From positions 1-35,906 of IMG/VR virus record IMGVR_UViG_3300023175_003987: a stretch of DNA of 35,906 nucleotides, one strand, 5' to 3'. This DNA comes from a virus. Numbering within the stretch: the first letter of the stretch is position 1; the number at the start of each line of letters is the position of its first letter. The notes beneath the pieces were generated by a model. It searched no databases. It was not told the origin of the DNA and saw only the letters and a list, made by a program, of their open reading frames with translations. A program made the translations under genes and the position numbers. This document shows, one piece after another, positions 18,497 to 35,906 of this stretch.

Positions 18497-18511
18497 GAGA
18501 ATTTACCTGTG

Positions 18512-18916: not shown

Positions 18917-18947
18917 TTATTTCTCCTTTATTAATTTATTTTCTAAT

Positions 18948-18955
18948 TATTTATA
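18948..18955 (-). promoter_or_regulatory. T4-type late promoter at the head of the virion block
   Basis: Exact TATAAATA on the minus strand, about 32 bases before the ATG at 18916. It could drive the small virion genes and gp13-15. Confidence 0.85.
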
Positions 18956-18964
18956 AAAAAAGGG

Positions 18965-18993
18965 TTGACAACGTTTAGAATCTTTGGTATAAT
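18965..18993 (+). promoter_or_regulatory. Exact-consensus sigma70 promoter, antisense to the sugar cassette
   Basis: The plus strand has TTGACA at 18965-18970 and TATAAT at 18988-18993, separated by exactly 17 bases, the ideal housekeeping sigma70 promoter. Transcription would start near 19000 and run into the 3' end of the minus-strand nucleotidyltransferase gene. The first same-strand gene is the cupin at 23550. A 4-bp hairpin (AGGC TTAT GCCT) and a six-codon frame lie at the expected start. Purpose unknown: antisense RNA, early transcription of the distant plus-strand operon, or a module-boundary relic. Confidence 0.7.
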
Positions 18994-19014
18994 AGGCTTA
19001 TGCCTTACAAACCA

Positions 19015-21018: not shown

Positions 21019-22063
21019 TATGATCTCCATAATTAACTAGAAATTCATTAAATACTTTCATTGGTAATTTAAGAATAAATGAAGCATTATCTTGCCAACC
21101 AAATGAAATTAAAATATCATTATTTCTAATTGTCATACCAGTAACAAATTCAATATTATAATCAGTATTAGTTACATGATCGTAATAAGTTCCCATAAAA
21201 TGAAATGGTTTAGTTGCATGAATTAAATTCCAATCGTCATCCCAAATAAGAATTCGATGAGCATAATCACCATCTTTTCTACCGAATGGATCTTTTAATA
21301 AAGTTGTTTCGTGGACAAATGCCATTCTTTGGTTGTCACCAATTCTAATGACTTGTGAACCACCTCTAAAATCTCTAGGAAATGGCGCTCTTGGAGATTT
21401 ATCTCTATATGTTTCTGTTGTTGTACCTTCTTCAATATCATATTTTACAATTTGAATAGGATTACACCATTTAACAAAATGATCTTCCATATCATTAATA
21501 GGCATCCAATTTTTTTCACAATATGAGCTATCATCGCCTGGAGCTGGAATAGGATTACGAGATACTTCTCTCCATTCTCCATCAATGAAATCAATTTCTG
21601 CCATCTCCATACGACCTTTGCCTTTATCATCGTATGCATCTCTACGAACACCACACAAATATAATTTATCATGCCAAGAAAATAAACGACAATCTTCTAA
21701 ACCAACAAAGTTCCAAGTAGGTTTACCTGTATCAAGAGCCATATTAATACGTTGGGCGTTTTTGACGTTCATATTATCATCTAACTCGCACATTACATTA
21801 TGTGTAGTAAGAGTTACGTCGTTTTCGGGATGTACGTATACAAGCGGTCCCCACTGATGAGGGAATTTCTTTCCTTCACTATGATAGAGTATATAGTTAA
21901 TGTGACGGATATTTAGAAGAATCTTCCCTTTGTGTTGGAAGATAGATGGGTTCATAATTCCAGTTTCATTACCTAATACTTCTTTAGGTAGAATAATTGG
22001 GTGTAACGTTCCGCCTCTTTTTAAGGCATAGGTCGCCAAACCACCCATATGCATATCATGCAT
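21008..22063 (-). CDS. GH130/GT108-like five-bladed beta-propeller protein
   Basis: This 351-residue protein has the motif series of the GH130-type propeller enzymes (beta-mannoside phosphorylases and relatives): MNPSIFQHKGKILLNIRHIN at 37-56, FVGLEDCRLFSW at 119-130 with Glu123 and Asp124, EKNWMPI at 183-189, RGGSQVIRI at 233-241, and a late FVTGMTIRNNDILISFGWQD. Members act on or build mannose-containing glycans. Whether this one is a phosphorylase, hydrolase or transferase is not clear. Its ribosome site GGAGGTGAT is nearly perfect, though the spacing to the first ATG is short (about 4 bases) and ATGs at codons 4 and 6 are alternatives. It is first in the three-gene sugar cassette. No late promoter was found upstream. 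Confidence 0.7.
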   Translation of the reverse strand: MHDMHMGGLATYALKRGGTLHPIILPKEVLGNETGIMNPSIFQHKGKILLNIRHINYILYHSEGKKFPHQWGPLVYVHPENDVTLTTHNVMCELDDNMNVKNAQRINMALDTGKPTWNFVGLEDCRLFSWHDKLYLCGVRRDAYDDKGKGRMEMAEIDFIDGEWREVSRNPIPAPGDDSSYCEKNWMPINDMEDHFVKWCNPIQIVKYDIEEGTTTETYRDKSPRAPFPRDFRGGSQVIRIGDNQRMAFVHETTLLKDPFGRKDGDYAHRILIWDDDWNLIHATKPFHFMGTYYDHVTNTDYNIEFVTGMTIRNNDILISFGWQDNASFILKLPMKVFNEFLVNYGDHNAI

Positions 22064-22089: not shown

Positions 22090-22419
22090 CTAATTCCAGT
22101 TAGGAGTAGTAAATGTTGTTTTCTTTTTATCTATTTTATTTTGTAATGTATTATTTATTTTATCTTGCTTAGCACTAATATCAGACATAACCCAATTAAG
22201 AACTATATCTTTAGTTAAATCAGCTAATGCAACAAAATCAGATGAAGAAGTAGATTCGGAACTTACTAATGTTTTACCAACATAACTAGCAGTTATTCCA
22301 TCAGTATCTGTAGCAATTTTTTTCCATTGAATTTCTACTACAGAATTTTCGTTTACTTCTCCGTCTGTATTTGTTTCATCTCTCAATCCAAGTTTTAAGA
22401 TGTGATACGAATAATTCAC
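22090..22419 (-). CDS. Small phage protein, paralogue A, unknown function
   Basis: This 109-residue protein shares a pattern with the next upstream gene: Y-x-Y-x(4)-LxLxDExNxDG near the start, a QW/YWK strand followed by TDxxG, then VALADLTKD-IVLNWV. The region looks like a small beta domain followed by an amphipathic helix (VALADLTKDIVLNWVMSDI). The C-terminal 25 residues are lysine-rich. Proteins of this type are common small orphans in marine myophages, with no known function. It has its own perfect late promoter, so it is expressed late and could be a virion or assembly component. Confidence 0.7.
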   Translation of the reverse strand: MNYSYHILKLGLRDETNTDGEVNENSVVEIQWKKIATDTDGITASYVGKTLVSSESTSSSDFVALADLTKDIVLNWVMSDISAKQDKINNTLQNKIDKKKTTFTTPNWN

Positions 22420-22441
22420 GACAGAATCCTTTGTTTAATTT

Positions 22442-22449
22442 TATTTATA
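22442..22449 (-). promoter_or_regulatory. T4-type late promoter for paralogue A
   Basis: Exact TATAAATA on the minus strand, about 23 bases before the ATG at 22419 in the short gap between the paralogous genes. Confidence 0.8.
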
Positions 22450-22457
22450 ACTTATTC

Positions 22458-22841
22458 TTAAGAGTCTACTTCAGCTGGATCAGCTTCTGGTGCTGAAGCC
22501 CAAGGAAGTGTATCTGGCTCTGTCGTTGCCGTTTCGTCAATTTGTCTTTGAATTTGTGCATCAATGTGTGCTTTATAATCAGCGTCGCCATCAACTACAG
22601 CTTGAATCCAACCAATAACATCTGATTCTTGTAAATCTTCAAATGCTACAAAAGCGCCTTCAGATACTTCTGATGCGCTAAATGGTGTTGCGCCAGAAAA
22701 TTCACCTGAATCACCGTTTTCGTCTGTACCAGTTACTTTCCAATAAGTTTGGCAGACAGCATTAGATAATGTAACACCATCACTGTTTACTTCATCTTTT
22801 ACTTTAAGATTAGTAACAGAATATGTATATGTAAAAGCCAT
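22458..22841 (-). CDS. Small phage protein, paralogue B, unknown function
   Basis: This 127-residue protein aligns with its downstream neighbour over about 85 residues: YTYSVTNLKVKDEVNSDG, then TYWKVTGTDENGDSGEFSG, AFVAFEDLQESDVIGWIQ. The tryptophans in the YWK strand and the GWI helix are shared. The C-terminal tail is different: acidic and Pro-rich, where paralogue A is basic. The pair looks like a local duplication with diverged tails. Function is unknown. Two late-promoter-like boxes lie upstream. A late virion-associated or chaperone role is possible but unsupported. Confidence 0.72.
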   Translation of the reverse strand: MAFTYTYSVTNLKVKDEVNSDGVTLSNAVCQTYWKVTGTDENGDSGEFSGATPFSASEVSEGAFVAFEDLQESDVIGWIQAVVDGDADYKAHIDAQIQRQIDETATTEPDTLPWASAPEADPAEVDS

Positions 22842-22919: not shown

Positions 22920-23480
22920 TTACTCAGTGAACAACTGTAAATCTACAGGAATGCAAATTCTATAATCAGAAAAATAAGGATTTACTGAATGATACAAGAA
23001 ACTCGGGAAAATAAAAACATCTCCTGTTTCTGGTATATATTCTTCCTTTTCAAATAAATGATAAAAAGGTGGTGGATAACCTCTATTTGCGTTAAATCTT
23101 GGATCATGAAAAACAATCGACCCACCAGCATCTGTTACTTCAGCAAGTGGATAAAAAACGGCTGATAAAAGATTACCACGATGATTATGAAAATTCATTC
23201 CCGTATTTGTCATTTTTGTTATCCAAGCGTTTGTTCGATAACCTGCAAAATCACTTATAGACTTATTTATAGTTTTCTGTAAATATTCATCAAAACAATT
23301 ATAAACTACTTTTTTAAATTCTTTAATTGGTTTTGAATCATTATCGAAAAAATTTTTACCAGCTAATTCACCATTCTCTGGTGTATTAAGATCATAATTT
23401 GTAAGAATATAGTCTGATAAACCTTCGACATGAAAATGACCAATACTTAATTTAGTTGGCCACAGATTATAAAAATTCAT
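22920..23480 (-). CDS. 2OG-Fe(II) oxygenase (phage hydroxylase type)
   Basis: This 186-residue protein matches the short putative 2-oxoglutarate/Fe(II) oxygenases common in marine phages. The double-stranded beta-helix signature is visible: W-I-T-K-M...NFHNHRGNLLSAVFYP (His98/His100, residues 86-111), GGSIVFHDPRFN at 119-130, GDVFIFPSFLYHSVNP at 153-168 with the second iron His164, and Arg174 in YRICIPV as the likely 2OG-binding arginine. It would use O2, Fe(II) and 2-oxoglutarate to hydroxylate a target, which is unknown. The ATG follows a strong AAAGGAG site. It is transcribed divergently from the cupin/radical SAM operon. Confidence 0.85.
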   Translation of the reverse strand: MNFYNLWPTKLSIGHFHVEGLSDYILTNYDLNTPENGELAGKNFFDNDSKPIKEFKKVVYNCFDEYLQKTINKSISDFAGYRTNAWITKMTNTGMNFHNHRGNLLSAVFYPLAEVTDAGGSIVFHDPRFNANRGYPPPFYHLFEKEEYIPETGDVFIFPSFLYHSVNPYFSDYRICIPVDLQLFTE

Positions 23481-23532: not shown

Positions 23533-23549
23533 GTTGTAATGGAAAATTG

Positions 23550-24014
23550 ATGAATTTCTCAGACTTTGAACAATGGCTATACTCTAATGAGTGTTTTGAA
23601 AATCATGATGTATCTTATATTGATATTGAAGGCCTTCAGCATTACTTAGATCAAACAGATTACCATGCATATATTGCAAAGGTAGGAATACTTATTGCTG
23701 AAAAAAATACAATCAAAGTAGAACAATATGAAAAAGTATTAAAAATAGTTGACAAAACGGCGCATGTGTTTTATAATCAAGATAATGGGCCAACTTTTAA
23801 ACTTCATCAAGACCCAGTTGATGTAATAATAGAATGTTTAGATGGTGAAAAAGATTTGGAAGTACGTGGAGCTAGAGTTACATTAAATCCAGGTGAATCA
23901 TTATTCATTCCAGCAAATACAAAGCATAGAGCAATTAATAGTAAAAAGGCATTAATGATTTCTTATGGCATTAGCGACACAGAAACACTTAGTAGTATAC
24001 GTAAAAACAACTGA
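23550..24014 (+). CDS. Cupin-domain protein
   Basis: This 154-residue protein opens the plus-strand operon. Residues about 80-130 form a cupin: FKLHQDPVDVIIECLDGE with His86, Asp88 and Glu95, then ARVTLNPGESLFIPANTKHRAIN with His126, resembling the metal site of small single-domain cupins. The N-terminal 75 residues are helix/strand mixed and not diagnostic. The start is the ATG at 23550, with GGA six to nine bases upstream; an in-frame TTG just before it is less likely. It overlaps the first radical SAM gene by 50 bases, an unusually long overlap that implies tight coupling. It might be a dioxygenase, isomerase or sugar-binding sensor; the reaction is not known. Confidence 0.75.
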   Translation: MNFSDFEQWLYSNECFENHDVSYIDIEGLQHYLDQTDYHAYIAKVGILIAEKNTIKVEQYEKVLKIVDKTAHVFYNQDNGPTFKLHQDPVDVIIECLDGEKDLEVRGARVTLNPGESLFIPANTKHRAINSKKALMISYGISDTETLSSIRKNN

Positions 24015-24996
24015 AACTTGCAATTTAAATTGTGATCATTGTTTTACTTCTGGTACTAAAGGTAGAAAAATATATTTTGATCCTATAAAGACTGCAGATT
24101 GGTGTAACCAATTAGATACTGGAGATAATAGAGTTCACTTTGAATTTCATGGTGGAGAGCCTATGCTTGCTCCATTAGAGGATCTTAAAAAGTTTGTAAA
24201 AATAGTAAGATCTCAGTGGGATGATAGATTAACAATAGGCATTACAACAAACTTAGTTTATAAGTTAAAACAAGAATACATAGATTTCTTTAAAGATATT
24301 GTTAAGCAAGATTTTATAGGAACATCTTGGGATCCGAAGATAAGATTTACTAATGATAAACAACTTAAATTATGGGAAGATAATGTAAAAAAATTAGTAG
24401 ATGAAGGTCTTGCAGTTAAATGTTTTGTATCTGTATCAACTGATGTTGTTAATATGGAGCCAATTAAAATTGCAAACTATATGGAATCTTTAGGTATTGA
24501 AGAATTATCATATGAAAGATTAACTCATAATGGCAATGCTACAATTAATTTAGAAATATTTCCGCATAATAAACAACTGGATAATTTTTGGATGTTGATG
24601 CATCAAACAACTCGTCATCACAAAGTAAAAAATACTTTCTTAAATACTGTATATAATAAATTTGATTATAACGAAACACGTAGTGGAACGTTTTGTAGAG
24701 ATTGTGAACAAAAATTATTTACTATAAACGCAGATGGAACAATAGCAGGCTGTCCTAATTCAGCTCCTACTGATTTTTATGGTCATATAGATGAGCCAGC
24801 TCCTGATGTAAAAGTATGTCCAAAAAGAATGACTGCTATAGATAATGAAATACATTTAAGAAATCCCAAATGTTATGAATGTCCTGTATTTAATTTATGT
24901 CATTCTGATTGTCATCAATTAAAATGGATGGATGGAGTATGCCCTGCACCTAAATCGCTTATGGTAGAATTAGCAAAGGAAAAAGAATGGATTTAA
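23965..24996 (+). CDS. Radical SAM/SPASM protein (rSAM1)
   Basis: This 343-residue radical SAM enzyme has the [4Fe-4S]-SAM motif C-x3-C-x2-C at Cys19, Cys23 and Cys26 (TCNLNCDHC) and the SAM-binding GGEP at 63-66 (FEFHGGEPML). The C-terminal third is a SPASM domain for auxiliary clusters: Cys244, 247, 263, 285, 303, 306, 312, 316 and 326, including CYECPVFNLCHSDC. SPASM enzymes mostly modify peptides or proteins (PqqE, sactisynthases, sulfatase maturases). No precursor peptide is next to it. The ATG lies inside the cupin gene with a weak ribosome site, consistent with translational coupling. It overlaps rSAM2 by 10 bases. Confidence 0.92.
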   Translation: MALATQKHLVVYVKTTETCNLNCDHCFTSGTKGRKIYFDPIKTADWCNQLDTGDNRVHFEFHGGEPMLAPLEDLKKFVKIVRSQWDDRLTIGITTNLVYKLKQEYIDFFKDIVKQDFIGTSWDPKIRFTNDKQLKLWEDNVKKLVDEGLAVKCFVSVSTDVVNMEPIKIANYMESLGIEELSYERLTHNGNATINLEIFPHNKQLDNFWMLMHQTTRHHKVKNTFLNTVYNKFDYNETRSGTFCRDCEQKLFTINADGTIAGCPNSAPTDFYGHIDEPAPDVKVCPKRMTAIDNEIHLRNPKCYECPVFNLCHSDCHQLKWMDGVCPAPKSLMVELAKEKEWI

Positions 24997-26039
24997 TTAT
25001 TAAACCAACCGAAGTTTGTAATTTTAAATGCACATTTTGTTCTTCAACAGATATTGATCCGAATAATGCTGGGTTATTAAGTCATGATTATATTTTTAAA
25101 TTCTTAGAAAGATTTCCCGAAACTAATACTATTATTGTAAATGGTGGTGATCCTTTAATGGTAGAACCAGAATATTATTGGAAGATTATTAATTATTTAG
25201 ATGAGCACGATTTACCCGCAACAGTATCACTTACAACAAACTTGTGGCCTTTTTATAAAAAACCAGAGAAGTGGGTAGACTTATTTAATAACGAAAGAGT
25301 AGGTATATGTACATCATTTCAATATGGAGGAGGACGCCTTAAAGGTGATTATTCCGAATTTAGTGAAGAAGATTTTTGGAAATGTTCAGATGCTATGCTT
25401 AAATATTGTGGTTATAGACCAGACTTTATTTCTGTTATTGTAGATGAAAATGAAAAAGATGCATTAAAAAATGTAGAGCTCGCAAAGAAGATGGGCGTAA
25501 CGTGTAAATTAAATTATGCAATGGCAAGTGGTGTGCAAGGATCTACATATAGACTTAGTAAAATATATGAGATGTATGTTAAAATATATGATATGGGTTT
25601 AGTAGATTATGAGTGGAATACTATGCAAATGGCTAAACGTCTTATTGGAGAAAATACTACTTGTCCACAATTAAGAGAATGCGATATTGGAATAAGAGCA
25701 ATGAATCCTGGTGGAGACTATTATAGCTGTGGTGCTTTTGGTGATGATAAAGATTATTCTATTGATTTTGAAAAAGAAATGCAAGGAGGATTTGAAACAC
25801 CTTTACAAAACGATCCTCATATTCAAACAATGAAAATGGCATGCTATACATGTCCTATGTTTAAGATATGTAATGGTTGTAAAAAAACAATACGAGATAT
25901 GAAAAGAGAAGGAATTGTAGAAGATCATTGTAAGCATATGAAAACTCTTGCACCTAGAATATTAGAAATTAATGGATTAGATCCAAATAGTGTAACACCA
26001 TATATTAACGAAAGTATACCTTATGAATTTATCGATTAA
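24987..26039 (+). CDS. Radical SAM/SPASM protein (rSAM2)
   Basis: This 350-residue protein begins almost directly with the radical SAM motif: Cys11, Cys15 and Cys18 in VCNFKCTFC. The strand-2 motif is GGDP at 53-56 (IIVNGGDPLM), an accepted variant of GGEP. A SPASM-like C-terminus contains Cys226, 232, 248, 286, 289, 295, 298 and 315, including CYTCPMFKICNGC. The NPGGDYYSCGAF segment (240-251) is the usual strand before the auxiliary cluster. It has a good AAGGA ribosome site, overlaps rSAM1 by 10 bases and rSAM3 by 17, and is diverged in sequence from rSAM1. It may act in the same pathway on a later step or different residue, which is inference. Confidence 0.92.
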   Translation: MDLIIKPTEVCNFKCTFCSSTDIDPNNAGLLSHDYIFKFLERFPETNTIIVNGGDPLMVEPEYYWKIINYLDEHDLPATVSLTTNLWPFYKKPEKWVDLFNNERVGICTSFQYGGGRLKGDYSEFSEEDFWKCSDAMLKYCGYRPDFISVIVDENEKDALKNVELAKKMGVTCKLNYAMASGVQGSTYRLSKIYEMYVKIYDMGLVDYEWNTMQMAKRLIGENTTCPQLRECDIGIRAMNPGGDYYSCGAFGDDKDYSIDFEKEMQGGFETPLQNDPHIQTMKMACYTCPMFKICNGCKKTIRDMKREGIVEDHCKHMKTLAPRILEINGLDPNSVTPYINESIPYEFID

Positions 26040-27417
26040 TCCTACTTACTATTGTAATTTTAAATGTGACTTTTGTTATCTTACAAAAGAACAACTTAGT
26101 GATAGAAAGAAAATTACTCCAGAAAAATTAGATGAATTACTTAGTAATATAGAAGATCCTATTGAACATATTGATTTATATGGTGGTGAAATAGCTTTAT
26201 TAACACCAGAATATTTTTATTCAATTAAAAATGTTATTAAAAAGTATTATCAAGGTGTTATTAATATTAATACTAATTTTAGTGCTTTACCTGATTTTTT
26301 CTATGATGACGATATTAAAATTTCAGTGTCTTATGATTTCTCTGCCAGAGAAAAAGAACAGTTTGTTTTAAATAATATAATGGCATCAAAAAAGCCATTA
26401 TTCATATTAGTATTAGCATCACCAAAAGTATTAGAAAAAGATGTCGATGAAATGATATCAATTTTTAATATGTGTTCTAAAATAGAAACAGTTGAAATTA
26501 AACCTTACTCTACTAATCAATCAAATGCTCATAATGTTACACATAAAGATTTTGAAGAGTTTGTTAAAAAATGGATTGAAAGTCCAATTGAAAAAAAATT
26601 CCAATTTATAAATGAGAATCATATAAGAAATTCTTTAGATGCAAGATATAATGCTTTTTCTAATGATCATGTTTATATTACTCCAAATGGAAAATATGCG
26701 GTATTAGAATTTGATAAAAATGATAATGAATATTTTTTAGAATTAGATACATATAAAGAATATAAAAAATGGGCTGAACAAGAACCAGATAAAAATACAT
26801 CTGATATATGTAAAAGCTGTGTATATTATGGTAACTGTTTAACAGAACATTATAGATATGTAAAAGATTTAGATAATGGATGTAATGGTTATAAAGGATT
26901 ATTAGATTGGTATAATGATAAGATTAATAACGTTATTTTAAAATATAATAATCTTATAATTAAAGATATAGATATTTCTTATCCAATATTTAATGATCTA
27001 AAAAATCTTAAAGATAACAATGTTGATGGTCCTTTAGATATTGTTAATGGAACAGAATTTATACAAGAAATATTAGAAAAAACTTTAGGATTTAAATTAA
27101 AAATATTAAATAGTTGGTTAAATAAAACAATATATAAAGGGTATCTAAATACTTTTGATTGGCATAATGAAAAAGGCGCTGGCGGTAATCAAAATGTTAT
27201 GCCAGGAACACATGCTTTAATTATTTGGATAGATGGAGAAAGTAATCAAGGTGGACAACTTAAAGTTATGGATGATAATGCTAACATTAGTTCATTTGAA
27301 TTCGAAAAAGGAAAGGTAATAACTTTTCCTATAACTTGGTTTCATAGGGTAGAAAATTATACAGGAGATACACCACGAATAAGTGTAAATATTACGTATG
27401 AAAGATTGGAAAGCTAG
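26023..27417 (+). CDS. Radical SAM-2OG/Fe(II) oxygenase fusion (rSAM3)
   Basis: This 464-residue protein joins two chemistries. Residues 1-290 form a radical SAM module: Cys11, Cys15 and Cys18 (CNFKCDFC), a GGE at 54-56 (DLYGGEIALL), and a C-terminal cluster site Cys263, 266, 272 and 287 (CKSCVYYGNC). Residues about 300-464 resemble a 2OG-Fe(II) dioxygenase jelly roll: His381-x-Glu383 (FDWHNEKG), GTHALIIWIDGESNQGGQLKV, FPITWFHRVEN with His441, and Arg452 in TPRISVNITYE. The ligands form the H-x-E/D...H...R set. No frameshift or stop separates the parts, so it is a genuine single reading frame. Radical SAM enzymes are oxygen-sensitive whereas the C-terminal domain would need O2, so the pairing is unusual. 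Confidence 0.85.
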   Translation: MNLSINPTYYCNFKCDFCYLTKEQLSDRKKITPEKLDELLSNIEDPIEHIDLYGGEIALLTPEYFYSIKNVIKKYYQGVININTNFSALPDFFYDDDIKISVSYDFSAREKEQFVLNNIMASKKPLFILVLASPKVLEKDVDEMISIFNMCSKIETVEIKPYSTNQSNAHNVTHKDFEEFVKKWIESPIEKKFQFINENHIRNSLDARYNAFSNDHVYITPNGKYAVLEFDKNDNEYFLELDTYKEYKKWAEQEPDKNTSDICKSCVYYGNCLTEHYRYVKDLDNGCNGYKGLLDWYNDKINNVILKYNNLIIKDIDISYPIFNDLKNLKDNNVDGPLDIVNGTEFIQEILEKTLGFKLKILNSWLNKTIYKGYLNTFDWHNEKGAGGNQNVMPGTHALIIWIDGESNQGGQLKVMDDNANISSFEFEKGKVITFPITWFHRVENYTGDTPRISVNITYERLES

Positions 27418-27805
27418 ACAAGCAGCGTATCATCTCGCTAATACAGAATTTAAAGATGATTTAAATGACGTTGATATTACTGTATCAGATGATATAGTAG
27501 ACGACGCGGTAATGCATTTTTACGAAGAAGTAGATGAATGGATTTATCCGGCTAAATCATATGTGGTTGCAATTTGTTATGCAACATGGTTATCAGAAGA
27601 TTATGGAGAAGATTTTTACGAAGTATTAGATGATCCAGAATTATTATTTAATAATGATCCGTATTTTGTACCATACTCTGAAGATGAAGGCACATACGAT
27701 GCAATACTTAGACAAATAGGTGAATTTGATCGAAATGACGGAATGGTTCCGGACATTTACGAATATTATAAAGAAGAAATGTTATATGGATTACGAACAA
27801 AGTGA
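27398..27805 (+). CDS. Small acidic protein in the radical SAM operon, unknown
   Basis: This 135-residue protein has no family I recognise. It is strongly acidic (many Asp/Glu, such as DDLNDVDITVSDDIVDD and a later EDYGEDFYEVLDDPELL), Tyr-rich and probably mostly helical. It has one Cys in AICYATWLSEDYG, no signal peptide and no membrane helix. It overlaps rSAM3 by 20 bases and rSAM4 by 20 bases, so it is made in step with both. Candidate roles are a partner or substrate-presenting protein for the radical SAM enzymes, or a modified substrate; neither is shown. It lacks the usual small-precursor layout (leader plus Gly/Cys-rich core). Confidence 0.7.
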   Translation: MKDWKARQAAYHLANTEFKDDLNDVDITVSDDIVDDAVMHFYEEVDEWIYPAKSYVVAICYATWLSEDYGEDFYEVLDDPELLFNNDPYFVPYSEDEGTYDAILRQIGEFDRNDGMVPDIYEYYKEEMLYGLRTK

Positions 27806-28853
27806 ACCAATAAAAGTTTTATTAGAACCTAAGAGACCAGAATTAGGTGAGATAGAATTAACTTTATTTGAGAACTGTCATTTAAATTGCGCTTTTTGTC
27901 ATCACGATAAAAAATCTACAGTAGGATTATCTAGAGAAGAAATATTTTCTAAGATACCATTAGTAGAAGAACATTTAATTAAAATGGAAGGAAGAGTTGA
28001 AACTTGCCAAATTAACATGGTGGGAGGAGAACTTTTTCAAGATAGAATATCTGACTGGGCATACGATGTTTATTATGATTTGCTTATTGAGATTAAAAAA
28101 TTATATGATAAGTATAATCACAAAATAAAAGTTGTTTGGGTAACATCATTTCAATTTAGTAAAAAAGATTTAGTTAAAAAATTATTAGATGATTTAAATG
28201 CAGCAAATATTCCTTCATATATTATTTGTTCTTATGACTTTGATGGACGACCACAAAAAGGACCATACCAAGATAATATAGAATATTTTGCAGATTATAT
28301 TATATCAATTAATATGGTTGCAACAGTTCCATCAATAAAAAAATTTATGGCTGACGATGATGAATATTTTCATTATCTTTATAATAAGTTTGATAATTTT
28401 TATTTTGATGATTACATACCAGATAAAGGTTTTGATTATTTAATTCCATCTGATAGTATGTACCTAGCATTTTTAAAATTTGTTTATAGGAAATATCCTG
28501 ATATAAATCCTATGAAAGATTTGATAGAAAAAAGTAGCAATCACATGCATTGCATGGCTTTAAATAAAGTAACAATATTTCCAGATAATTCTACATCAAA
28601 TTGTAGATGGAATAGATATACAAAAGAAGATTTTAATACACCTTTAAATAGAAAAGATAATGCTTCTATGATGCAAGCTTATATGGATGAGCACGGTTGT
28701 TTATCATGTAAATGGTGGAATAAATGTGGATTTAGATGTTATACACAATGGGATTGGAAAAACCGAGAACGCGATTTACCAGATTGTGTAATGCGTATGT
28801 GGTTTAATTATATGGAGAAGAAAAGTGAAGTTGAAATGTTACACACACGATAA
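27786..28853 (+). CDS. Radical SAM/SPASM protein (rSAM4)
   Basis: I place the start at 27786 (355 residues), because the reading frame upstream of it lies wholly inside the previous gene and MDYEQSEPIK has a GAAGAA-type site upstream. The radical SAM motif is Cys31, Cys35 and Cys38 (NCHLNCAFCHHD) and the GGE motif is at 80-82 (NMVGGELFQD). The C-terminus carries a SPASM-like set: CMALNKVTIFPDNSTSNC, then CLSCKWWNKCGFRC and a last Cys in LPDCVMRMW. The family resembles radical SAM/SPASM maturases. It overlaps the acidic gene by 20 bases and the next gene by 29 bases, closing the four-enzyme plus-strand series. Confidence 0.9.
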   Translation: MDYEQSEPIKVLLEPKRPELGEIELTLFENCHLNCAFCHHDKKSTVGLSREEIFSKIPLVEEHLIKMEGRVETCQINMVGGELFQDRISDWAYDVYYDLLIEIKKLYDKYNHKIKVVWVTSFQFSKKDLVKKLLDDLNAANIPSYIICSYDFDGRPQKGPYQDNIEYFADYIISINMVATVPSIKKFMADDDEYFHYLYNKFDNFYFDDYIPDKGFDYLIPSDSMYLAFLKFVYRKYPDINPMKDLIEKSSNHMHCMALNKVTIFPDNSTSNCRWNRYTKEDFNTPLNRKDNASMMQAYMDEHGCLSCKWWNKCGFRCYTQWDWKNRERDLPDCVMRMWFNYMEKKSEVEMLHTR

Positions 28854-29526
28854 GAGTGTATTTGAATTACAAAAATTAGAATACAAAACTAAACCTCCAA
28901 GTTGGTGGAAAAAAATTAAAAACTTTGCTCATAAGTTTGATATTAGATCTGGAGTAAATATTCCAGTACCAACAATCAAGACTTGTCCAGGAGTTGCAGA
29001 TTATATTCGTAAACCTATTACACTCAAATTATGGTCTGATGTTATATTTAATATAAAACCAGACGGTAAAGTAAAACTTGCAGAGCCCATCGAAAGTTTT
29101 AACAGAATTGGTGGTGGTGTGCATGAAGATTATCAATATGGAAAAGAACTTTATCCTGGTAGAACAGTATTTAAGCTATATGGTCCGTGGGCTATAGAAG
29201 GATCTGATAGAACAGAGTTTATGTTAAAAGAAATACATTACTCAGAAGATCTTCGTAAACATGATATATTAATATCACCCGGTATTGCTAATTTTAAAGA
29301 TCAGCATACTCTTAATGTGTTCCTTGTATTTCCTATTAAAGAAGAAGAATACACTGTACAATTAAAATATGGAACTCCTATAATGTCTATCTATCCTATG
29401 ACTGATAAAAAGGTTGAATTAGAACATTATCTAATTCCAAAAACAGAGTGGGATGGTTTTCAAAATAATTACCCAAGTACTTTCTTAGGAAGATACTACG
29501 CCGGGAAACACGCACGAAGTGATTGA
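28825..29526 (+). CDS. Conserved-looking phage protein of unknown function
   Basis: This 233-residue protein starts with GTG at 28825, preceded by a clear GGAGAAG ribosome site inside rSAM4. It carries KTKPPSWWKKI near residues 19-29 and a TCPGVADYIRKPITLKLWSDVIF stretch (about 52-74), then alternating beta strands (HTLNVFLVFPIKEEEYTVQLKYGTPIMSIYPM). I associate this layout (PP-x-WWK, TCPG..D, W-x-D) with a family of marine-phage proteins of unknown function, from memory and without a search. The C-terminus is GRYYAGKHARSD. It is the last gene of the plus-strand operon, and its end overlaps the end of a minus-strand radical SAM gene by 42 bases. It may be a partner or substrate protein; nothing in the sequence decides. 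Confidence 0.7.
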   Translation: MKLKCYTHDKSVFELQKLEYKTKPPSWWKKIKNFAHKFDIRSGVNIPVPTIKTCPGVADYIRKPITLKLWSDVIFNIKPDGKVKLAEPIESFNRIGGGVHEDYQYGKELYPGRTVFKLYGPWAIEGSDRTEFMLKEIHYSEDLRKHDILISPGIANFKDQHTLNVFLVFPIKEEEYTVQLKYGTPIMSIYPMTDKKVELEHYLIPKTEWDGFQNNYPSTFLGRYYAGKHARSD

Positions 29527-30504
29527 ATGATGTTTCATATAAGATAATACACCTTTGTCTATACAAGTCATTTGATTATGGCAATTACCACAGTTTTTTG
29601 TTTCTTGAGCGTAAACTAATTGCTCCATAAATTGATCTGTTTTAATTTCAGTCCAAGAATTAATATCGCTTTCATTTTTTACTTCAAATTCAGATGTTCC
29701 TATTAATGCAATATCATAAATGAATGGAGTCCAAAAAAATCTTTCATTACAATAAGTATAGTTAAGTTCTAATGATCCACCTTGAGCTTGATCGATAATT
29801 GTTTTAGGATATAAATCATCGCTAAAATCATATTGCTTCCATTTATTAATTAAATGCTTTTGTAATTTTGATTTAGGAGATCTAAAGAAAGAAGGGTTTA
29901 GTGTAAGTAATGAATTAAATCGTTCTTTTACTAACTTAGCCATTTCAAGTACTTGGCTATTATATTCGTCATCATTACCCATATTATAAACCATATAATA
30001 ATTTAAATCATCTTTAAATTTATTAAGTAGATTTAGTTTACTTTCAATTTTATCCCAATCAACAGGTAATTGTAATGCAATATTTGCATCATACATAAAT
30101 CCATCTTTCTTTGGAATACTATTTAATAAGTCTATGACTTCATCATCTACTTTTTCTAATGTAGTAACAAATTGAATAGTGGTAACTTTACTTAAACATT
30201 CTCTAAACGTTTCATCTTTTAGTAATGAAACAATATTATTATTACCAAATAAATCAGTAGGACCTATATTAATTGTTGAAACTCTAAATCCATTATCATT
30301 AAATAAATCAATTGCTTTGTTTAATCTATCATAAGATCCCATATTAGATCCTACTTTATTAACAAAACAACCTTTACATTTAAATTCACAACCAGATAAT
30401 ACTTCACAATTAAATTGCACTTTAATTTCATGTCCTTTATCAAAGGATAAGTTAAATTCTTTATCTGCTTGTGCGTGTTTTAAATTATCAGTAACTATTG
30501 GCAT
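29485..30504 (-). CDS. Radical SAM protein with GPTD motif (rSAM5)
   Basis: This is one of five minus-strand paralogues. With the start at 30504 (ATG, MPIVTDNLKH; 339 aa) it matches the MPIIKNN start of rSAM7. The longer frame to 30531 would begin with TTG inside the upstream gene. The radical SAM cysteines are 39, 43 and 46 (SGCEFKCKGCFV). Strand 2 ends in IGPTDLFG (Gly81-Asp84) where GGE is expected. Conserved later segments are NPSFFRS and TPFIYDIALIG. The C-terminal cluster is Cys305, 308, 314 and 331 (C-x2-C-x5-C-x16-C). The 3' end overlaps the convergent plus-strand gene by 42 bases. The start overlaps rSAM6 by 17 bases. Confidence 0.88.
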   Translation of the reverse strand: MPIVTDNLKHAQADKEFNLSFDKGHEIKVQFNCEVLSGCEFKCKGCFVNKVGSNMGSYDRLNKAIDLFNDNGFRVSTINIGPTDLFGNNNIVSLLKDETFRECLSKVTTIQFVTTLEKVDDEVIDLLNSIPKKDGFMYDANIALQLPVDWDKIESKLNLLNKFKDDLNYYMVYNMGNDDEYNSQVLEMAKLVKERFNSLLTLNPSFFRSPKSKLQKHLINKWKQYDFSDDLYPKTIIDQAQGGSLELNYTYCNERFFWTPFIYDIALIGTSEFEVKNESDINSWTEIKTDQFMEQLVYAQETKNCGNCHNQMTCIDKGVLSYMKHHSITSCVFPGVVSS

Positions 30505-31630
30505 TATAATACTCATTATCAAAAAGTTCAATCACTTGTTTATTTAATATACATTCTTTTCTGTTATTAAATATATTATCCATAACTTTAGGTATTAATC
30601 TATTACTACATATATTTAAATATTTGCAAGTAATACATTCTTTGTTATGACTGTTTTCTATTTGTTCATTAACTACATAATTTTTATAGTTAAGTATAGA
30701 TTTATGAATTGAATTATTAATTTCTATTTTAAAATCATCATTATATATTGCTGCATTTTCGTATATAAATGGAGACATATAAACATTACCATTATGAATA
30801 CCTATTACTGAATAATGAAATGCTTTGTGCGATAAATCACCTTGTAAAAAATGAATATTATTTTTAAAATAGTCTACATCTTTAGCAATATCATTTAATA
30901 AATCATTCCATTCAAACAATTTATTACCATGTTTATTTCCATTATCAAACGATCTTACTACAGATGGTAATATTTCTATTACAGTAGAATATTTGTTACG
31001 TATATAATTATTTGCTTCATATATTCTTTCTACAGATATATTATCGACGATATTAGTTGCCATAGAAATTTCAAATTCTAAATTACTATTTGCAAATGTT
31101 TCTACTCTTTCATCTAAAGCTTTTCTATAATCTTTGTCATCTAATACTTTATTAAGATCTAATGCTATTTGTACATCCCAAGCTTTTACTGTTTTTCCAA
31201 GTAAAGATTCTTCTATTAGTTTTAGTTTACCTTGAATATCTTTTTCATTAAGTGATCCATCTATAGAACAATTATGTTGTACATTTCTATTATCTTCTGG
31301 CATCCATGAAATTGCTTGTACCAATTTTTCATTATTAATAATATCAGTAAGGTTTTGTGCACCATAAAAATCTGTAGGTCCAATAACAATATCATCTAAT
31401 ACAATATGATTATTATCTTTTAATTCTTTTGCTAAATTATAAAATATATCAATAGACTGAGGATTCCAATTACCTTTTCTTTTTACAAAACATCCTGGAC
31501 AATTATAAGAACAACCTTCAAGTAATTCTAAAATAACTTGAATTTTATATTGACCCATAGAACTTACTGATGTAAACTCTTCACCTTGGCCACCATGTTT
31601 AACTATTTTTTCCCAGCTATCATTTAACAT
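30488..31630 (-). CDS. Radical SAM protein with GPTD motif (rSAM6)
   Basis: This 380-residue paralogue of rSAM5, 7 and 8 has the motif Cys40, Cys44 and Cys47 in EGCSYNCPGCFVKRKG and GPTD at 84-87 (DIVIGPTDFYGAQN). Shared features follow: PSVVRSFDNG, MSPFIYENAAIYNDDFKI, and a C-terminal cluster Cys332, 335, 341 and 360 (C-x2-C-x5-C-x18-C), two residues longer than in the others. The gene is very AT-rich (for example 12 G+C among bases 30601-30660). It overlaps rSAM7 by 11 bases and rSAM5 by 17. The function is unknown. The conserved aromatic SPFxYE strand suggests a shared fold and probably similar chemistry. Confidence 0.9.
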   Translation of the reverse strand: MLNDSWEKIVKHGGQGEEFTSVSSMGQYKIQVILELLEGCSYNCPGCFVKRKGNWNPQSIDIFYNLAKELKDNNHIVLDDIVIGPTDFYGAQNLTDIINNEKLVQAISWMPEDNRNVQHNCSIDGSLNEKDIQGKLKLIEESLLGKTVKAWDVQIALDLNKVLDDKDYRKALDERVETFANSNLEFEISMATNIVDNISVERIYEANNYIRNKYSTVIEILPSVVRSFDNGNKHGNKLFEWNDLLNDIAKDVDYFKNNIHFLQGDLSHKAFHYSVIGIHNGNVYMSPFIYENAAIYNDDFKIEINNSIHKSILNYKNYVVNEQIENSHNKECITCKYLNICSNRLIPKVMDNIFNNRKECILNKQVIELFDNEYYNANSY

Positions 31631-32774
31631 ATGATATATTTTTTAATTCCTTTAATCTTTTATCACCGTCTTTTGTTATTAAAAACTTTTTACGATATCC
31701 TTTTTTATCTTTTTCTACAGAATAACCATCCCAATCATACATGACTTGAGCGGCTTCATTATAGTTATGAATATTATTTATCATGTTTTCTTTGGGTGCA
31801 ATACATCTATCAACACCTAAGTAATCTCTTAATAATATAATTTTTCTATGATAACAACTAAAAAACAAAGGACAATTTTCGCATTCAGTATTTTTTGCTC
31901 TTTGTATTTGTGATTCATTTATATTTACAACATCATCAAAAGAATTAATTTTAAATATAGAATCATATATTGCCATGTTTTCATACATGAATGGAGATAT
32001 ATACCACTCACCTTTTTTATAATTTAATACAGTATAGTTCATTCCTGCATGCGAATGATCGACCATAATATTATTAAGTGTAGAACCTTTAATTAACTTA
32101 TTAAAATAATCATTAAAAGAATCTAGTGTTTTTAATATAATACTTGATTTATGAGATCTAGAAACCGATGGTATAAAGTCAATCGTTGTTTTAAATTCTT
32201 TAATTGCAAAATCATGTAATGAATGATAATTTAAATCATAATCATTTATATTTACGACAAATGTAAATGTAACTTCGTGTTTAATATTTTCATCAATATA
32301 TTTTAATTTATTCTTAATATTTTGTATATAATCAACTTCAAGAAATTTATGTGGATTAATTGCGACACCTATTTCTATTTCAGTATCTAAGTTAATATTA
32401 TCTAACCACTTCACCCATTTTTCAAGATCACCATCAATTAAAGTAGATACGAATGCGAGAATAGGAGAGTTCTCATTAATTAAATCAATAAGACTTGGCA
32501 TAACTTCATAAAAGTTTTCTGATGCCAAAAAGTCTGTAGGACCAATTAGCATTTCATCTACTAATATTCCTTTATCTGTTATTTCTCTTACAAAGTCGCA
32601 TGCAGATTTTAATTGAGATTCATCACTAGAATTACCACGTCTATGCACAAAACATCCTGGACATTTATGGTGACATCCATCTAATATATCAAGTTGAATT
32701 TTTACTGCAGACACTGGTTTAGTTTGAGTTTCTGTAGTTAATTCGTAGTATAAATTGTTTTTAATTATCGGCAT
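31620..32774 (-). CDS. Radical SAM protein with GPTD motif (rSAM7)
   Basis: This 384-residue protein starts MPIIKNNLYYELT. Its radical SAM site is Cys34, Cys38 and Cys41 (DGCHHKCPGCFVHRRG) and the strand-2 motif is GPTD at 78-81 (EMLIGPTDFLASENFYE). PSVSRSHKSS, ISPFMYENMAIYDSIFKI and the C-terminal cluster Cys298, 301, 307 and 324 (C-x2-C-x5-C-x16-C) align with the other paralogues. It has an extra C-terminal tail of about 50 residues (basic, KDKKGYRKKFLITKDGDKR) absent from the others, which might bind a partner or nucleic acid (inference). It overlaps the flanking genes by 11 and 14 bases. Confidence 0.9.
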   Translation of the reverse strand: MPIIKNNLYYELTTETQTKPVSAVKIQLDILDGCHHKCPGCFVHRRGNSSDESQLKSACDFVREITDKGILVDEMLIGPTDFLASENFYEVMPSLIDLINENSPILAFVSTLIDGDLEKWVKWLDNINLDTEIEIGVAINPHKFLEVDYIQNIKNKLKYIDENIKHEVTFTFVVNINDYDLNYHSLHDFAIKEFKTTIDFIPSVSRSHKSSIILKTLDSFNDYFNKLIKGSTLNNIMVDHSHAGMNYTVLNYKKGEWYISPFMYENMAIYDSIFKINSFDDVVNINESQIQRAKNTECENCPLFFSCYHRKIILLRDYLGVDRCIAPKENMINNIHNYNEAAQVMYDWDGYSVEKDKKGYRKKFLITKDGDKRLKELKNISYVK

Positions 32775-33780
32775 ACATATATTCTTTAAGAGCTACACAT
32801 GTTTCTAAGTTTCTTGATTCCATATACATATGAACATTTCGTTCTGCACAATACATTATATATTCACAATTACTACATTCTACTTTATTTGCATAATTTA
32901 AATTTTTATCTAATAAATTATCATCTATATTTGATATAAAGAAATCATCTCTTTGTATAATAGCATCATATAAAAAAGGATTTACATATAATTTTCCATT
33001 ATAGAAACTATAATTTTGACATCCAAATCCATTAAAATTAACATGAAAAAATGTATATAAGTTTAACCATTTTTTGTCTATCTTTTGATTAATTAATTCT
33101 TCACGAAAACTTTTTAAATACTCGTTTACTTTACCTCTACTATTTGTATCAGTTAAAAATGAAGGAGTTATTACGATAGGTGCATTAAAATCATCATATA
33201 CTTTTTGACATAAATCGTTATATGATATTCTTTTAAAAACATCTTTACTATAATTTACTCTAAACTGCACAGAACCTTTTTTAAATAATTCTAATTTTTT
33301 ATACCATTCATCAAGTTCATTATCTAAATACTTATCAATATCTAATACAATTTTAAAATCAATATCTGGTATTCTATCTATATTATCATATAAATCCCAT
33401 AACATTTTATGTTTTTCTTTTACCATTTCTATTGGTTGATTTATTGTTGTAAGATATCCTATTGCAGAAATTTCATAAAGAGACTTCATTGAAGGATGTT
33501 TTATAATATCATAAAAGTTTTGAGAGTCAAATATATCTGTAGGACCTACAATAATTTCATCAGGATAATAACTACCGTCTTTAAGTAGATTATAGAGTTG
33601 TGTTAAGTTATCTAAACCAGTAAGATTTTTTCTAGGAATAAAACATCCTGGACACATTTGATTGCACCCATGAAGTATATCTAAATTGACTTCAGTCCTT
33701 AAAAAATCTTTATTAATTGGACTTTTACTTTCGTCGTAATTATAATATCCGGCGTTTGTATTATTCAGATGGACTATCAT
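32761..33780 (-). CDS. Radical SAM protein with GPTD motif (rSAM8)
   Basis: This 339-residue paralogue has Cys39, Cys43 and Cys46 (HGCNQMCPGCFIPRK) and GPTD at 79-82 (EIIVGPTDIFDSQNFY). PSFLTDTNSRG replaces the PS-x-x-RS motif of its relatives, so it is the most diverged in that segment. VNPFLYDAIIQRDDFFI is the family strand, and Cys302, 305, 311 and 328 form the C-x2-C-x5-C-x16-C site. The start overlaps the end of the unknown 262-residue gene by 20 bases, and its end overlaps rSAM7 by 14 bases. The reaction is unknown. Confidence 0.9.
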   Translation of the reverse strand: MIVHLNNTNAGYYNYDESKSPINKDFLRTEVNLDILHGCNQMCPGCFIPRKNLTGLDNLTQLYNLLKDGSYYPDEIIVGPTDIFDSQNFYDIIKHPSMKSLYEISAIGYLTTINQPIEMVKEKHKMLWDLYDNIDRIPDIDFKIVLDIDKYLDNELDEWYKKLELFKKGSVQFRVNYSKDVFKRISYNDLCQKVYDDFNAPIVITPSFLTDTNSRGKVNEYLKSFREELINQKIDKKWLNLYTFFHVNFNGFGCQNYSFYNGKLYVNPFLYDAIIQRDDFFISNIDDNLLDKNLNYANKVECSNCEYIMYCAERNVHMYMESRNLETCVALKEYMYADN

Positions 33781-34549
33781 CAGCCGAGACCACTACCGTA
33801 CCTGGTGGCATCATTTTTAATATATTTTCTACTATTCTTGTATGTACTAGTACGTAATATAAATCCGATCCAAAGTAAGTAGGTTTATCATTATAAATTT
33901 GTTTATTAAAATATTTAGTAAAACCGAAACGAGATGTAATAAGTAAAAAAGCATCCCAAGCATCTGTTACTATTCTAAGAACATTAACACCGCATGAAAC
34001 AGGTTTATCAATAATTTCTATTTCTTCAATAATAGGTTTAATATTTACTTCTTTTTCTTTAATATCATCCGGTAACTCATTATAAAATTTGTGCAATACA
34101 AAAGCAATGAGTTGGGATAATGTATTACATAATTCATCAATTAACTCCAGATTATTTTCTACTATTTCGATTATTTTATCTTTTGGCATTAAAAATGTTA
34201 ATTCTTCTTCACCAATATTAAATTCATATTGTAATCTGGTTTTAATACACATAGTAGTAAATCTTGCAAGTAAACTACAATCTACCATAAAATCAGATTT
34301 AATATATTCAATAATTAAATCTTCATCTATTTCAGAAAAATGGCATTTGAAATTAGTGTTTGAAAGATAAATTAATATATTTTTAGCAGTTAGCTTTTCT
34401 CTAGATTTTGTATAGTCTACCCACAAGACAAACTCTTTATCATTTTCTTTTTGCTTGTATATATCAACTAGATCTTGTGGAGCTAATGGAAGAGCGTATG
34501 CTTTTTTATCTTGGTATTTTTTCTTTTGATTCACACTTTGTTCAATCAT
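33761..34549 (-). CDS. Unknown protein embedded in the minus-strand radical SAM operon (A)
   Basis: I do not recognise this 262-residue protein. It is mostly helical with a Lys/Gln-rich start (NQKKKYQDKKAYALPLAPQD), a strongly hydrophobic/acidic helix pair around residues 120-150 (KIIEIVENNLELIDELCNTLSQLIAF) and a Pro/Ser-rich end (PPGTVVVSADDSPSE). There is no enzymatic motif, signal peptide or clear transmembrane helix. It is 14 bases after the next unknown gene and overlaps rSAM8 by 20 bases, so it belongs to the operon. Context suggests a carrier, adaptor or substrate for the radical SAM enzymes, but a virion role is equally possible. Confidence 0.75.
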   Translation of the reverse strand: MIEQSVNQKKKYQDKKAYALPLAPQDLVDIYKQKENDKEFVLWVDYTKSREKLTAKNILIYLSNTNFKCHFSEIDEDLIIEYIKSDFMVDCSLLARFTTMCIKTRLQYEFNIGEEELTFLMPKDKIIEIVENNLELIDELCNTLSQLIAFVLHKFYNELPDDIKEKEVNIKPIIEEIEIIDKPVSCGVNVLRIVTDAWDAFLLITSRFGFTKYFNKQIYNDKPTYFGSDLYYVLVHTRIVENILKMMPPGTVVVSADDSPSE

Positions 34550-34563
34550 AATATTACCTTATT

Positions 34564-35661
34564 TTATAGTGGATATTTGTGAATTAAATATGGTATTCTG
34601 TTTTGTCTTTTACTGAAAAATTGTACATCAGTATTAATTAGTCTTAAATCTTCAGACAATGTTTCTATATTATAATCACCTTGTAATACCATTTTAACAA
34701 TAGGGAATACATTATTAATTTCTGTATATAAATCATTATATTCCCAACCACTACTAGATTCAGCAACTTTAGCATCATGAGCAGCAATAAATGCTGGATC
34801 GTCTTTTACTTTATTCCAAAGTTCTTCTAATTTATAAAATGCTAATGTATAGTTACCAGTATTAGCAGCATTTACATATACTTCTTTAAAAAATTCTTTT
34901 TTGTCTGTAGCATAATTATTTGAGTCAGTTGCATGCTCGTTCATCCAATCTATTACTGATAATAAGTATGCAGTGTAATGACGTCTTGATGTGAAATGTT
35001 CCATAACATCTTGTGCTAAAACAGATGAATGAATTGTAAGCTTTTCAATTATTAAATTTTTAACACCGTCGCATGGATAAGTATCATTTAAAAAGAATAA
35101 TAAATCATAACTAAAATTCTTTCCATCTTGATATGTAATATCAAAAGCTGGAGTATCAGAATCTGCTAGTGTATCTAAACAATGTTGTCTTGCGTCATTT
35201 AAAATAGTTGAATCACTCATAAATGATAGCACCAAGTCTGATTCTACAATTGCTTCTATAAAATCAGCTGTAATTTCATTTATAGATGTATTTGAGTTTT
35301 CATAAAAGCCAGAAGCATCTAATAAGCCAGCAGTGTAACGAGAAAATACGTTAAGCATATCACTTTCATCAGTAAATGCAATGATATACTTATCACTATT
35401 TTGTAGAAATGCAGAGTTAGCAACATCTGTAAATTCACTAAACGCTATATAATCACCAGCACCAGTTCTTATACTTTCTGCTAAGGTTGTATATTCATCA
35501 TTAATAATTGATACTTCGGTATTACTAGAATTAACTACTAAGATATCACGAGCATCACCTGTATGATAAAAAGAATTTAATTCAAAAACAACAGTTCCTA
35601 TATTTGTTGTATTTGTAATATATTTCTTATTATTTAAATAATATAAACTCTGTCCAATCAT
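34564..35661 (-). CDS. Unknown protein embedded in the minus-strand radical SAM operon (B)
   Basis: The N-terminal third of this 365-residue protein is beta-rich and polar (IGTVVFELNSFYHTGDARDILVVNSSN), and the remainder is helical and Tyr/Asp-rich. The C-terminus is RIPYLIHKYPL. It has only two Cys (RQHCLDT and TYPCDGV), no catalytic motif and no signal peptide or membrane segment. Its ATG overlaps the stop of the upstream radical SAM gene by four bases (ATGA), and it lies 14 bases before unknown gene A. It resembles neither the radical SAM proteins nor a known virion protein that I can identify. A substrate or scaffold of the modification system is an inference from operon structure. Confidence 0.75.
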   Translation of the reverse strand: MIGQSLYYLNNKKYITNTTNIGTVVFELNSFYHTGDARDILVVNSSNTEVSIINDEYTTLAESIRTGAGDYIAFSEFTDVANSAFLQNSDKYIIAFTDESDMLNVFSRYTAGLLDASGFYENSNTSINEITADFIEAIVESDLVLSFMSDSTILNDARQHCLDTLADSDTPAFDITYQDGKNFSYDLLFFLNDTYPCDGVKNLIIEKLTIHSSVLAQDVMEHFTSRRHYTAYLLSVIDWMNEHATDSNNYATDKKEFFKEVYVNAANTGNYTLAFYKLEELWNKVKDDPAFIAAHDAKVAESSSGWEYNDLYTEINNVFPIVKMVLQGDYNIETLSEDLRLINTDVQFFSKRQNRIPYLIHKYPL

Positions 35662-35906
35662 GAAGCCTCTCCTAATATTTCCATTGCGTCGTCATTCCAT
35701 GTAAAATCAAATGGATTATAATAATCAAGTATATCTTTATTTAATACACATCCATCAATACCCAAAGTTTCTTGGGCTTCAAATATTAATCTGCTAGCAC
35801 AAGCAACAGAGTATTTACAATTAGAACAATCTTTTACTTTACTAGATTTATTTATACCTTTTGTTACTAATTGATTTTTTCTTTCTAATATTTCTTCAAA
35901 TGATAA
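35658..35906 (-). CDS. Radical SAM paralogue, C-terminal part only (rSAM9, runs off the window)
   Basis: Translating the minus strand from the window edge gives an open frame of 82 residues ending in a stop at 35658. It contains DCSNCKYSVACASRLIFEAQ, and a further Cys follows in LGIDGCVLNKD: the same C-x2-C-x5-C-x16-C signature as rSAM5-8. LGIDGCVLNK closely matches LGVDRCIAPK of rSAM7, and CSNCKY/ACASRL matches CITCKY/ICSNRL of rSAM6. The radical SAM core must lie beyond the window, so the Cys motif and GPTD cannot be checked. The stop overlaps the next ATG (ATGA). It extends the GPTD-type family to at least five members. Confidence 0.8.
   Translation of the reverse strand, partial: LSFEEILERKNQLVTKGINKSSKVKDCSNCKYSVACASRLIFEAQETLGIDGCVLNKDILDYYNPFDFTWNDDAMEILGEAS

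Follow-up and report, generated by a model that had tools for sequence, protein, structure and literature searches.

A conserved Cys-His-x-Ser tail accompanies the radical SAM genes of a T4-like phage and recurs in jumbo phages and predatory bacteria: a candidate RiPP-like system

Radical S-adenosylmethionine (rSAM) enzymes of the SPASM type modify peptides and proteins, as is known for anSME and for the maturases of sactipeptides, ranthipeptides and cyclophanes. Such peptide-maturase systems usually have one or two rSAM enzymes, whereas nine rSAM genes are found in the marine T4-like phage DNA analysed here, which is the entire 35.9-kb IMG/VR record IMGVR_UViG_3300023175_003987 (35,906 nucleotides, hereafter the window). 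High numbers of rSAM genes in T4-like marine phages have already been published, since 12 have been reported for TARA_ERS488813_N000010 (PMC5332604) and rSAM cassettes for the host-recognition clusters of pelagimyophages (PMC7029224), and papers on jumbo phages list cupin, rSAM and 2-oxoglutarate (2OG) genes (PMC8066314, PMC11898562). Therefore, the number of rSAM genes, which a first-pass annotation of the window had regarded as unusual, is correct as a count and is not new in itself. What is not named in the available parts of these four papers is a substrate for the enzymes. The same annotation held that the substrate could not be seen; a longer, near-identical contig does show a candidate about 1 kb beyond the end of the window, namely a protein whose exact C-terminus is the 16-residue motif C-H-x-S-C-H-x-S-C-H-x-S-R-G-R-R, written (CHxS)3RGRR below. 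We consider, with a probability of roughly 0.7, that the genes form a system like those of ribosomally synthesised and post-translationally modified peptides (RiPPs), in which a tail-associated protein has its (CHxS)3RGRR end modified by rSAM enzymes of SPASM type.

First of all, the motif was searched for in IMG/VR independently of rSAM genes, which gave at least 120 stretches, and 79 loci were examined. Among the matches listed, 75 of the 79 loci had the motif in frame as the very last residues of a protein, and every one of these 75 motif contigs carried the rSAM families of the window, 72 within the fetched stretch and 3 elsewhere on the contig. A control pattern in which His and Cys exchange places had 8 matches, none of which was C-terminal. 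In the reverse direction, the motif was present in 19 of 23 contigs selected by their rSAM genes, and the remaining four were fragments of 22-24 kb, one being a near-copy of the window that ends before the motif. Moreover, the motif protein occurs in all seven phage records with an enzyme of the type of A1 (the first rSAM of the window, a kind whose gene is usually next to that of the motif protein in other phages): Phosso, Atu_ph07 (twice), SURPRISE13, FLC8, FLC6 and DT01. These records represent six cultured jumbo phages, with one record read per phage, of Burkholderia (FLC6, FLC8 and SURPRISE13), Pseudomonas (DT01), Sinorhizobium (Phosso) and Agrobacterium (Atu_ph07). Among the Burkholderia phages the motif protein is gp72, with the C-terminal peptide ...CHSSCHTSCHGSRGRR. 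The pairing of motif and rSAM genes is thus strongly supported.

Sequence comparison showed that the 159 distinct motif proteins, of about 100-360 amino acids (aa), carry varied leaders that fall into 11 clusters (blastp E 1e-3, single linkage) and one common tail. Since the Cys, His and Arg positions were fixed by the search pattern for part of this set and by the motif-protein filter for the whole of it, the informative positions are the remaining ones. In 56 proteins from loci that were not fetched by the motif, Ser at positions -13, -9 and -5 was conserved at 0.96-1.00 and Gly at -3 at 0.98, and the mean entropy was 0.38 bits over the last 16 positions as compared with 1.87 in the preceding 44. 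In the loci not fetched by the motif, no other C-terminal CH..CH tail was found apart from the SPASM cysteines of A1 itself. Synonymous codons vary freely in the tail (TGT/TGC, CAT/CAC, AGY/TCN, AGR/CGN), so that selection acts on the protein. A Cys/His/Ser/Arg tail that is strictly conserved behind many leaders has the look of a modified core. As in a RiPP system, an encoded candidate substrate with a conserved core is linked to the enzymes proposed to modify it. One motif protein (L142:8105-8878) has four repeats, CHSNCHSNCHSNCHTNRSRR.

In the phage of the window, the motif proteins were located on longer contigs. On IMGVR_UViG_3300023105_000036, the minus-strand operon starts with a tail-fibre gene (2685 aa, continuing past the locus edge), followed by the genes for two proteins of 126-127 aa and then by those for B5, the proteins 34564 and 33761, and B4, B3, B2 and B1. 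Both small proteins, upstream of B5 at L074:8443-8826 and 8060-8440 (projected window positions 36836-37219 and 37222-37602), terminate in CHNSCHQSCHGSRGRR followed by the stop codon, and the same arrangement of motif proteins is found in the other rSAM-selected loci that reach far enough. As for whether the rSAM genes might be a chance gathering or a misassembly of unrelated contigs, the latter a doubt that the annotation had itself raised, nothing was found in favour of this reading. The contigs L004, L026/L044/L074 and L075, from three other metagenomes, are collinear with the window at 99.8-100% identity without gaps and jointly span positions 13965-35906, which excludes misassembly, and the arrangement is found again in many contigs and isolates; this reading is already refuted. 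Further to the right, the contig that is near-identical to the window (L332) contains additional large fibre genes, one of which has seven collagen repeat stretches and a Peptidase_S74 domain.

The neighbourhood of the motif gene was counted in 143 dereplicated motif loci, and it links the motif to tail-fibre genes. The 33761 family, whose window member is the partner protein at 33761..34549 (minus strand), occurs in 115 of the 143, always on the motif strand and usually downstream of the motif protein, while fibre-like proteins occur in 79, cupins in 65, a family of about 370 aa in 52 and the 34564 family in 37. Representative proteins of the fibre family matched tail-fibre PHROGs in most cases. 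A common arrangement runs from a large structural protein through tail fibre, cupin, A1-type rSAM, motif protein, 33761 family and 370-aa family to more rSAM genes, and the gap between A1 and motif genes has a median of 29 bp, being no more than 100 bp in 84 of the 149 loci with both genes. In the T4-like group of the window, the order is tail fibre, two motif genes, B5, 34564, 33761 and B4-B1, facing A1-A4. This composition also bears on the possibility that the product is a secreted RiPP, in other words a modified peptide that, once cut off its leader, leaves the cell by export or at lysis and acts in free form as an antibiotic, a signal or an inhibitor of competing phages. A C-terminal core on varied leaders together with several rSAM genes does resemble RiPP clusters, and one copy in Bdellovibrionota (L330) has an ABC transporter gene nearby. 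However, no recognisable peptidase, protease, exporter or other transporter recurs among the frequent neighbour families (several of which have no assigned identity), the leaders are large at 100-360 aa, and the neighbouring genes are tail-fibre genes, so a secreted product seems unlikely to us.

The rSAM genes of the window begin at about 23.9 kb and comprise eight complete open reading frames (ORFs) and the C-terminal end of a ninth, four on the plus strand and five on the minus strand, in two operons that meet convergently near 29.5 kb. The first-pass description of nine rSAM genes in two facing operons beside T4-like virion genes is thereby confirmed. The C-x3-C-x2-C motif, which it had read in the eight complete genes, is present in 9/9 when B5 is taken from L074 (for example CNLNCDHC, CHHKCPGC and CDHGCLGC), and the C-terminal C-x2-C-x5-C that it gave for all nine is likewise found in 9/9. 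On the plus strand, A1 (23965..24996) is a SPASM enzyme with a Pfam Radical_SAM domain (frame search) and a TIGR04085 SPASM score of 27.1 bits against a cut-off of 27; alignment of 21 homologues gave invariant Cys at 19, 23, 26, 244, 247, 263, 303, 306, 312, 316 and 326, of which the eight C-terminal ones compare with the approximately seven of a SPASM auxiliary domain. A2 (24987..26039; Radical_SAM 37.7 bits, phrog_1802) and A3 (26023..27417; Radical_SAM 32.5 bits at residues 5-74) are both above the Pfam cut-off, and A4 (27720..28853) matches phrog_1802 at 1.6e-18 and contains CHLNCAFC and CLSCKWWNKC. A3 appears to be an rSAM-oxygenase fusion, with a C-terminal domain of the 2OG-Fe(II) oxygenase or cupin kind to which PF13759 and Cupin_8 match weakly at residues 416-460. 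In the marine phages, the SPASM cysteines of A1 read CHSDCHQ, similar to the CHxSCH repeat of the proposed substrate, which may be a coincidence.

On the minus strand, B1 (29485..30531) has CEFKCKGC and CGNCHNQMTC with a weak Radical_SAM match, B2 (30488..31630) has CSYNCPGC and CITCKYLNIC with a weak TIGR04085 match, and B4 (32761..33780) has CNQMCPGC and CSNCEYIMYC, matches phrog_1802 at 4.9e-5 and aligns with the B family, with no Radical_SAM match in the Pfam search. B5 (35658..35906), the ninth, is an 82-residue C-terminus cut by the window edge; its full length is 391 aa at L074:8829-10004, projected to window positions 35658-36833 on the minus strand. Pfam Radical_SAM thus recognises A1-A3 well, whereas A4 and the B group are recognised poorly, mostly by weak matches. 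For B3 (31620..32774), the AlphaFold2 (AF2) model (predicted local distance difference test, pLDDT, 77.6) alternates strands and helices, and all its PDB matches at E<=0.001 are rSAM enzymes, the best being of SPASM/RiPP type (4k39 anSME, 5why CteB, EpeE, SuiB and SkfB). Structure prediction, which the annotation had named as a check on the rSAM barrel, therefore lets the B group be taken as rSAM enzymes; the core barrel is indicated by Pfam for A1-A3, by fold for B3, by phrog_1802 for A4 and by alignment only for the other B enzymes. The SPASM label given earlier to these proteins holds for A1 and does not extend to the B enzymes, which are below the TIGR04085 cut-off and have four invariant C-terminal Cys only (298, 301, 307 and 324 in B3); they are twitch-like, perhaps with one auxiliary cluster.

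The solved structures closest to A1 and B3 are largely peptide- or protein-modifying rSAM enzymes (anSME, CteB, EpeE, SuiB, SkfB and TigE). This bears on auxiliary metabolism as an explanation, in which the rSAM cassette would serve a cofactor, a modified nucleotide or sugar, or the Fe-S metabolism of the host, and its proximity to fibre genes would reflect a hypervariable island. The available parts of the literature discuss the rSAMs of T4-like phages together with Fe-S cluster metabolism (PMC5332604) and describe them as cassettes of host recognition clusters (PMC7029224). Nevertheless, the best matches are peptide and protein maturases, and one gene order recurs in T4-like phages, jumbo phages and Bdellovibrionota, so that this explanation appears highly improbable.

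If the RiPP-like system is as we infer from these genes, the conserved (CHxS)3RGRR tail would be the substrate core carried on varied leaders, and the SPASM/twitch-type rSAM enzymes would act on it in several steps. As there are up to nine rSAMs for one tail of 16 residues, several different modifications are suggested, and the products would probably be cross-links or other C-H-activated changes at the Cys, His, Ser and Arg positions. The 2OG-Fe and cupin proteins may contribute oxidations, the proteins of the 33761, 34564 and 370-aa types would probably be substrate-binding or assembly partners, and the completed protein would probably become part of the tail-fibre apparatus or sit on its surface; there, its modified tail would help the phage to attach to its host. 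The multi-step peptide or protein modification pathway envisaged at first reading is therefore supported, judging from the likeness of the enzymes to SPASM modifiers and from the conserved substrate-like protein that accompanies them across very different phages.

Several points weigh against this interpretation. In the T4-like group, A1 is an exception to the close spacing and lies about 12 kb from the motif genes, in the converging operon. In hhalign, the profiles of the A1 and B types gave only a weak mutual alignment, so the barrel membership of the B group depends on the B3 fold and the cysteines. Neither a leader peptidase nor a RiPP recognition element was found. The motif could also be a metal-binding or sorting signal, possibly a binder of Fe-S clusters, with the rSAM enzymes acting elsewhere, on the fibre, on surface glycans or on a small molecule; the motif is rich in Cys and His, phage tail tips can bind iron via HxH motifs, and glycan-type genes lie upstream in the window. 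Against such a tag, the linkage of motif and rSAM genes is complete in the motif-selected set, mostly between adjacent genes, and metals are not usually bound by Ser or RGRR, which are conserved here; we consider it unlikely, if somewhat less so than a secreted peptide. As for the virion location required by the RiPP-like reading, the motif protein of Atu_ph07 is gp170, and the available part of the paper on this phage gives a virion-protein cluster 'CDS 170-215' of coding sequences (CDSs), while all three of its clusters span exactly 46 CDSs (PMC6102473). Because the clusters are equal, the boundary may be arbitrary, and this indication of gp170 in the virion is suggestive, not decisive. For FLC6 and SURPRISE13, mass spectrometry is not mentioned in the main text of the respective papers.

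The module is not limited to phages. Scanning of genomes revealed motif proteins in assemblies of Bdellovibrionota, six of which also have an A1-type enzyme, and in the A1 tree most Bdellovibrionota rows cluster together, along with viral rows. No PF03237 terminase was found in these six genomes, which are draft assemblies, and jumbo-phage terminases can escape PF03237; the cluster on L329 adjoins acyl-CoA dehydrogenase and 3-hydroxyacyl-CoA dehydrogenase genes. With these housekeeping genes beside it, the L329 cluster is probably chromosomal, and together with the lack of such a terminase this speaks for a chromosomal position of the module in these bacteria. The contigs L329, L330 and L331 all bear the module, and the rSAM genes of L329 have as a neighbour a protein with a B12-binding-like domain (17571-19310). 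In addition, Peptidase_S74 proteins adjoin the L329 and L330 clusters, one of them with a pilin-type N-terminal methylation motif, and it has been reported that S74-bearing mosaic adhesive trimer (MAT) fibres of Bdellovibrio function in prey recognition (PMC10769870). By this analogy, the link with attachment organelles may extend outside phages. A broader reading is tentatively put forward, at a little under even odds in our estimation: phages and predatory bacteria may share a chemical weapon or grip, a ribosomally made, rSAM-modified (CHxS)3RGRR tip on tail-fibre-associated proteins, with up to nine rSAMs working on one tail. Such a product, retained on the attachment organelle, would form a RiPP-like class that is new and, to our knowledge, the first of this kind.

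Among the other genes of the window, the T4-like virion genes occupy bases 1-18.9 kb (major head, scaffold, protease, portal, tube, sheath, terminases, sheath stabiliser and neck proteins). Ahead of the rSAM region, at 19015-22063, lie three genes possibly related to surface glycan: a cytidylyltransferase with a mannose-6-phosphate isomerase C-terminal domain, an FkbM/glycosyltransferase-like protein and a third without an assigned family. These are followed by two tandem DUF7936 proteins (22090-22841; PF25590, phrog_7802), a 2OG-Fe(II) oxygenase on the minus strand (22920..23480; PF13759 45.8 bits, cut-off 27; phrog_81), the family of which is close to 25 of the 143 motif loci, and, upstream of A1, a plus-strand cupin protein (23547..24014; Cupin_2 37.9 bits). 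Within the plus-strand operon are a small conserved protein of phrog_20737 (27398..27805; 5.2e-42), with a similar protein, read by eye, in Bdellovibrionota at L330:5826-6314, and a phrog_7084 protein (28825..29526; 8e-12). The 33761 family is homologous to the phrog_20767 proteins, its jumbo-phage version (hhalign 99.4%). The 34564 protein (34564..35661, minus strand) is conserved and mostly helical (22-sequence alignment) and occupies the slot of the approximately 370-aa family in the gene order of other phages; direct comparison gave no support for homology to SURPRISE13_073, which has the corresponding position in its phage. A RiPP recognition element was looked for in the confident AF2 model of the 34564 protein (pLDDT 86.7), which had no PDB match at E<=0.001. 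PDB sequence searches with profiles of the 33761 family, the 34564 family and the motif protein gave nothing convincing.

The pairing of the module with the motif recurs in dozens of unrelated phages and in predatory bacteria, and it offers a concrete target for many rSAM genes that have so far lacked an explanation in marine and jumbo phages (phrog_1802, phrog_31457), together with a functional hypothesis for the families phrog_35144 (the motif protein), phrog_20767 (the partner), phrog_36207 and phrog_20737. If the tail is indeed modified and carried on the virion, phage attachment would use a chemistry not so far considered, common to bacteria-attacking bacteria. Since several carriers are cultured phages, the hypothesis is directly testable.

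Compared with the known systems, the candidate would represent RiPP-like rSAM maturation in an unusual setting. A parallel for acting on a whole protein subunit instead of a free peptide is QhpD/QhpC, an rSAM/SPASM case, from which A1 differs at 27.4 bits against a cut-off of 453. The enzymes share the SPASM/twitch-type rSAM fold and, on the proposed reading, the class of peptide or protein substrates with anSME, CteB, SuiB, SkfB, EpeE, TigE and DarE; no curated cut-off of these maturases was reached, and their substrates are others. QueE of the 7-deazaguanine pathway (A1 with TIGR03963, 24.7 against 260.1 bits; phrog_2076 weak), viperin (NF038283, best 36.3 against 180 bits), and MoaA and other named rSAM families, all far under their curated cut-offs, were rejected. 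Both the substrate and the module are absent from the literature searched; no paper in the open PMC literature contains the motif letters, a search that most subscription journals and preprints lie outside. TARA_ERS488813_N000010 and the pelagimyophages are likewise T4-like marine phages with several rSAM genes, and the pelagimyophage island also adjoins tail-fibre genes; the available parts of these papers treat Fe-S metabolism or hypervariable cassettes and describe no substrate, motif or module (PMC5332604, PMC7029224). The MAT fibres of Bdellovibrio are S74-bearing, like the proteins near the Bdellovibrionota module copies, whereas the main text of that paper mentions neither radical SAM nor post-translational modification (PMC10769870). 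Finally, the HXS RiPP system HxsA/HxsB/HxsC (PMC9062424) was rejected as an identity by score (best HxsB, TIGR03978, 29.4 bits against 370; HxsC, TIGR03977, 24.5 against 267.9), and it is alike in having His-x-Ser repeats in its substrate and an rSAM pair, whereas here the repeat is Cys-His-x-Ser, occurs three times and is then followed by RGRR.

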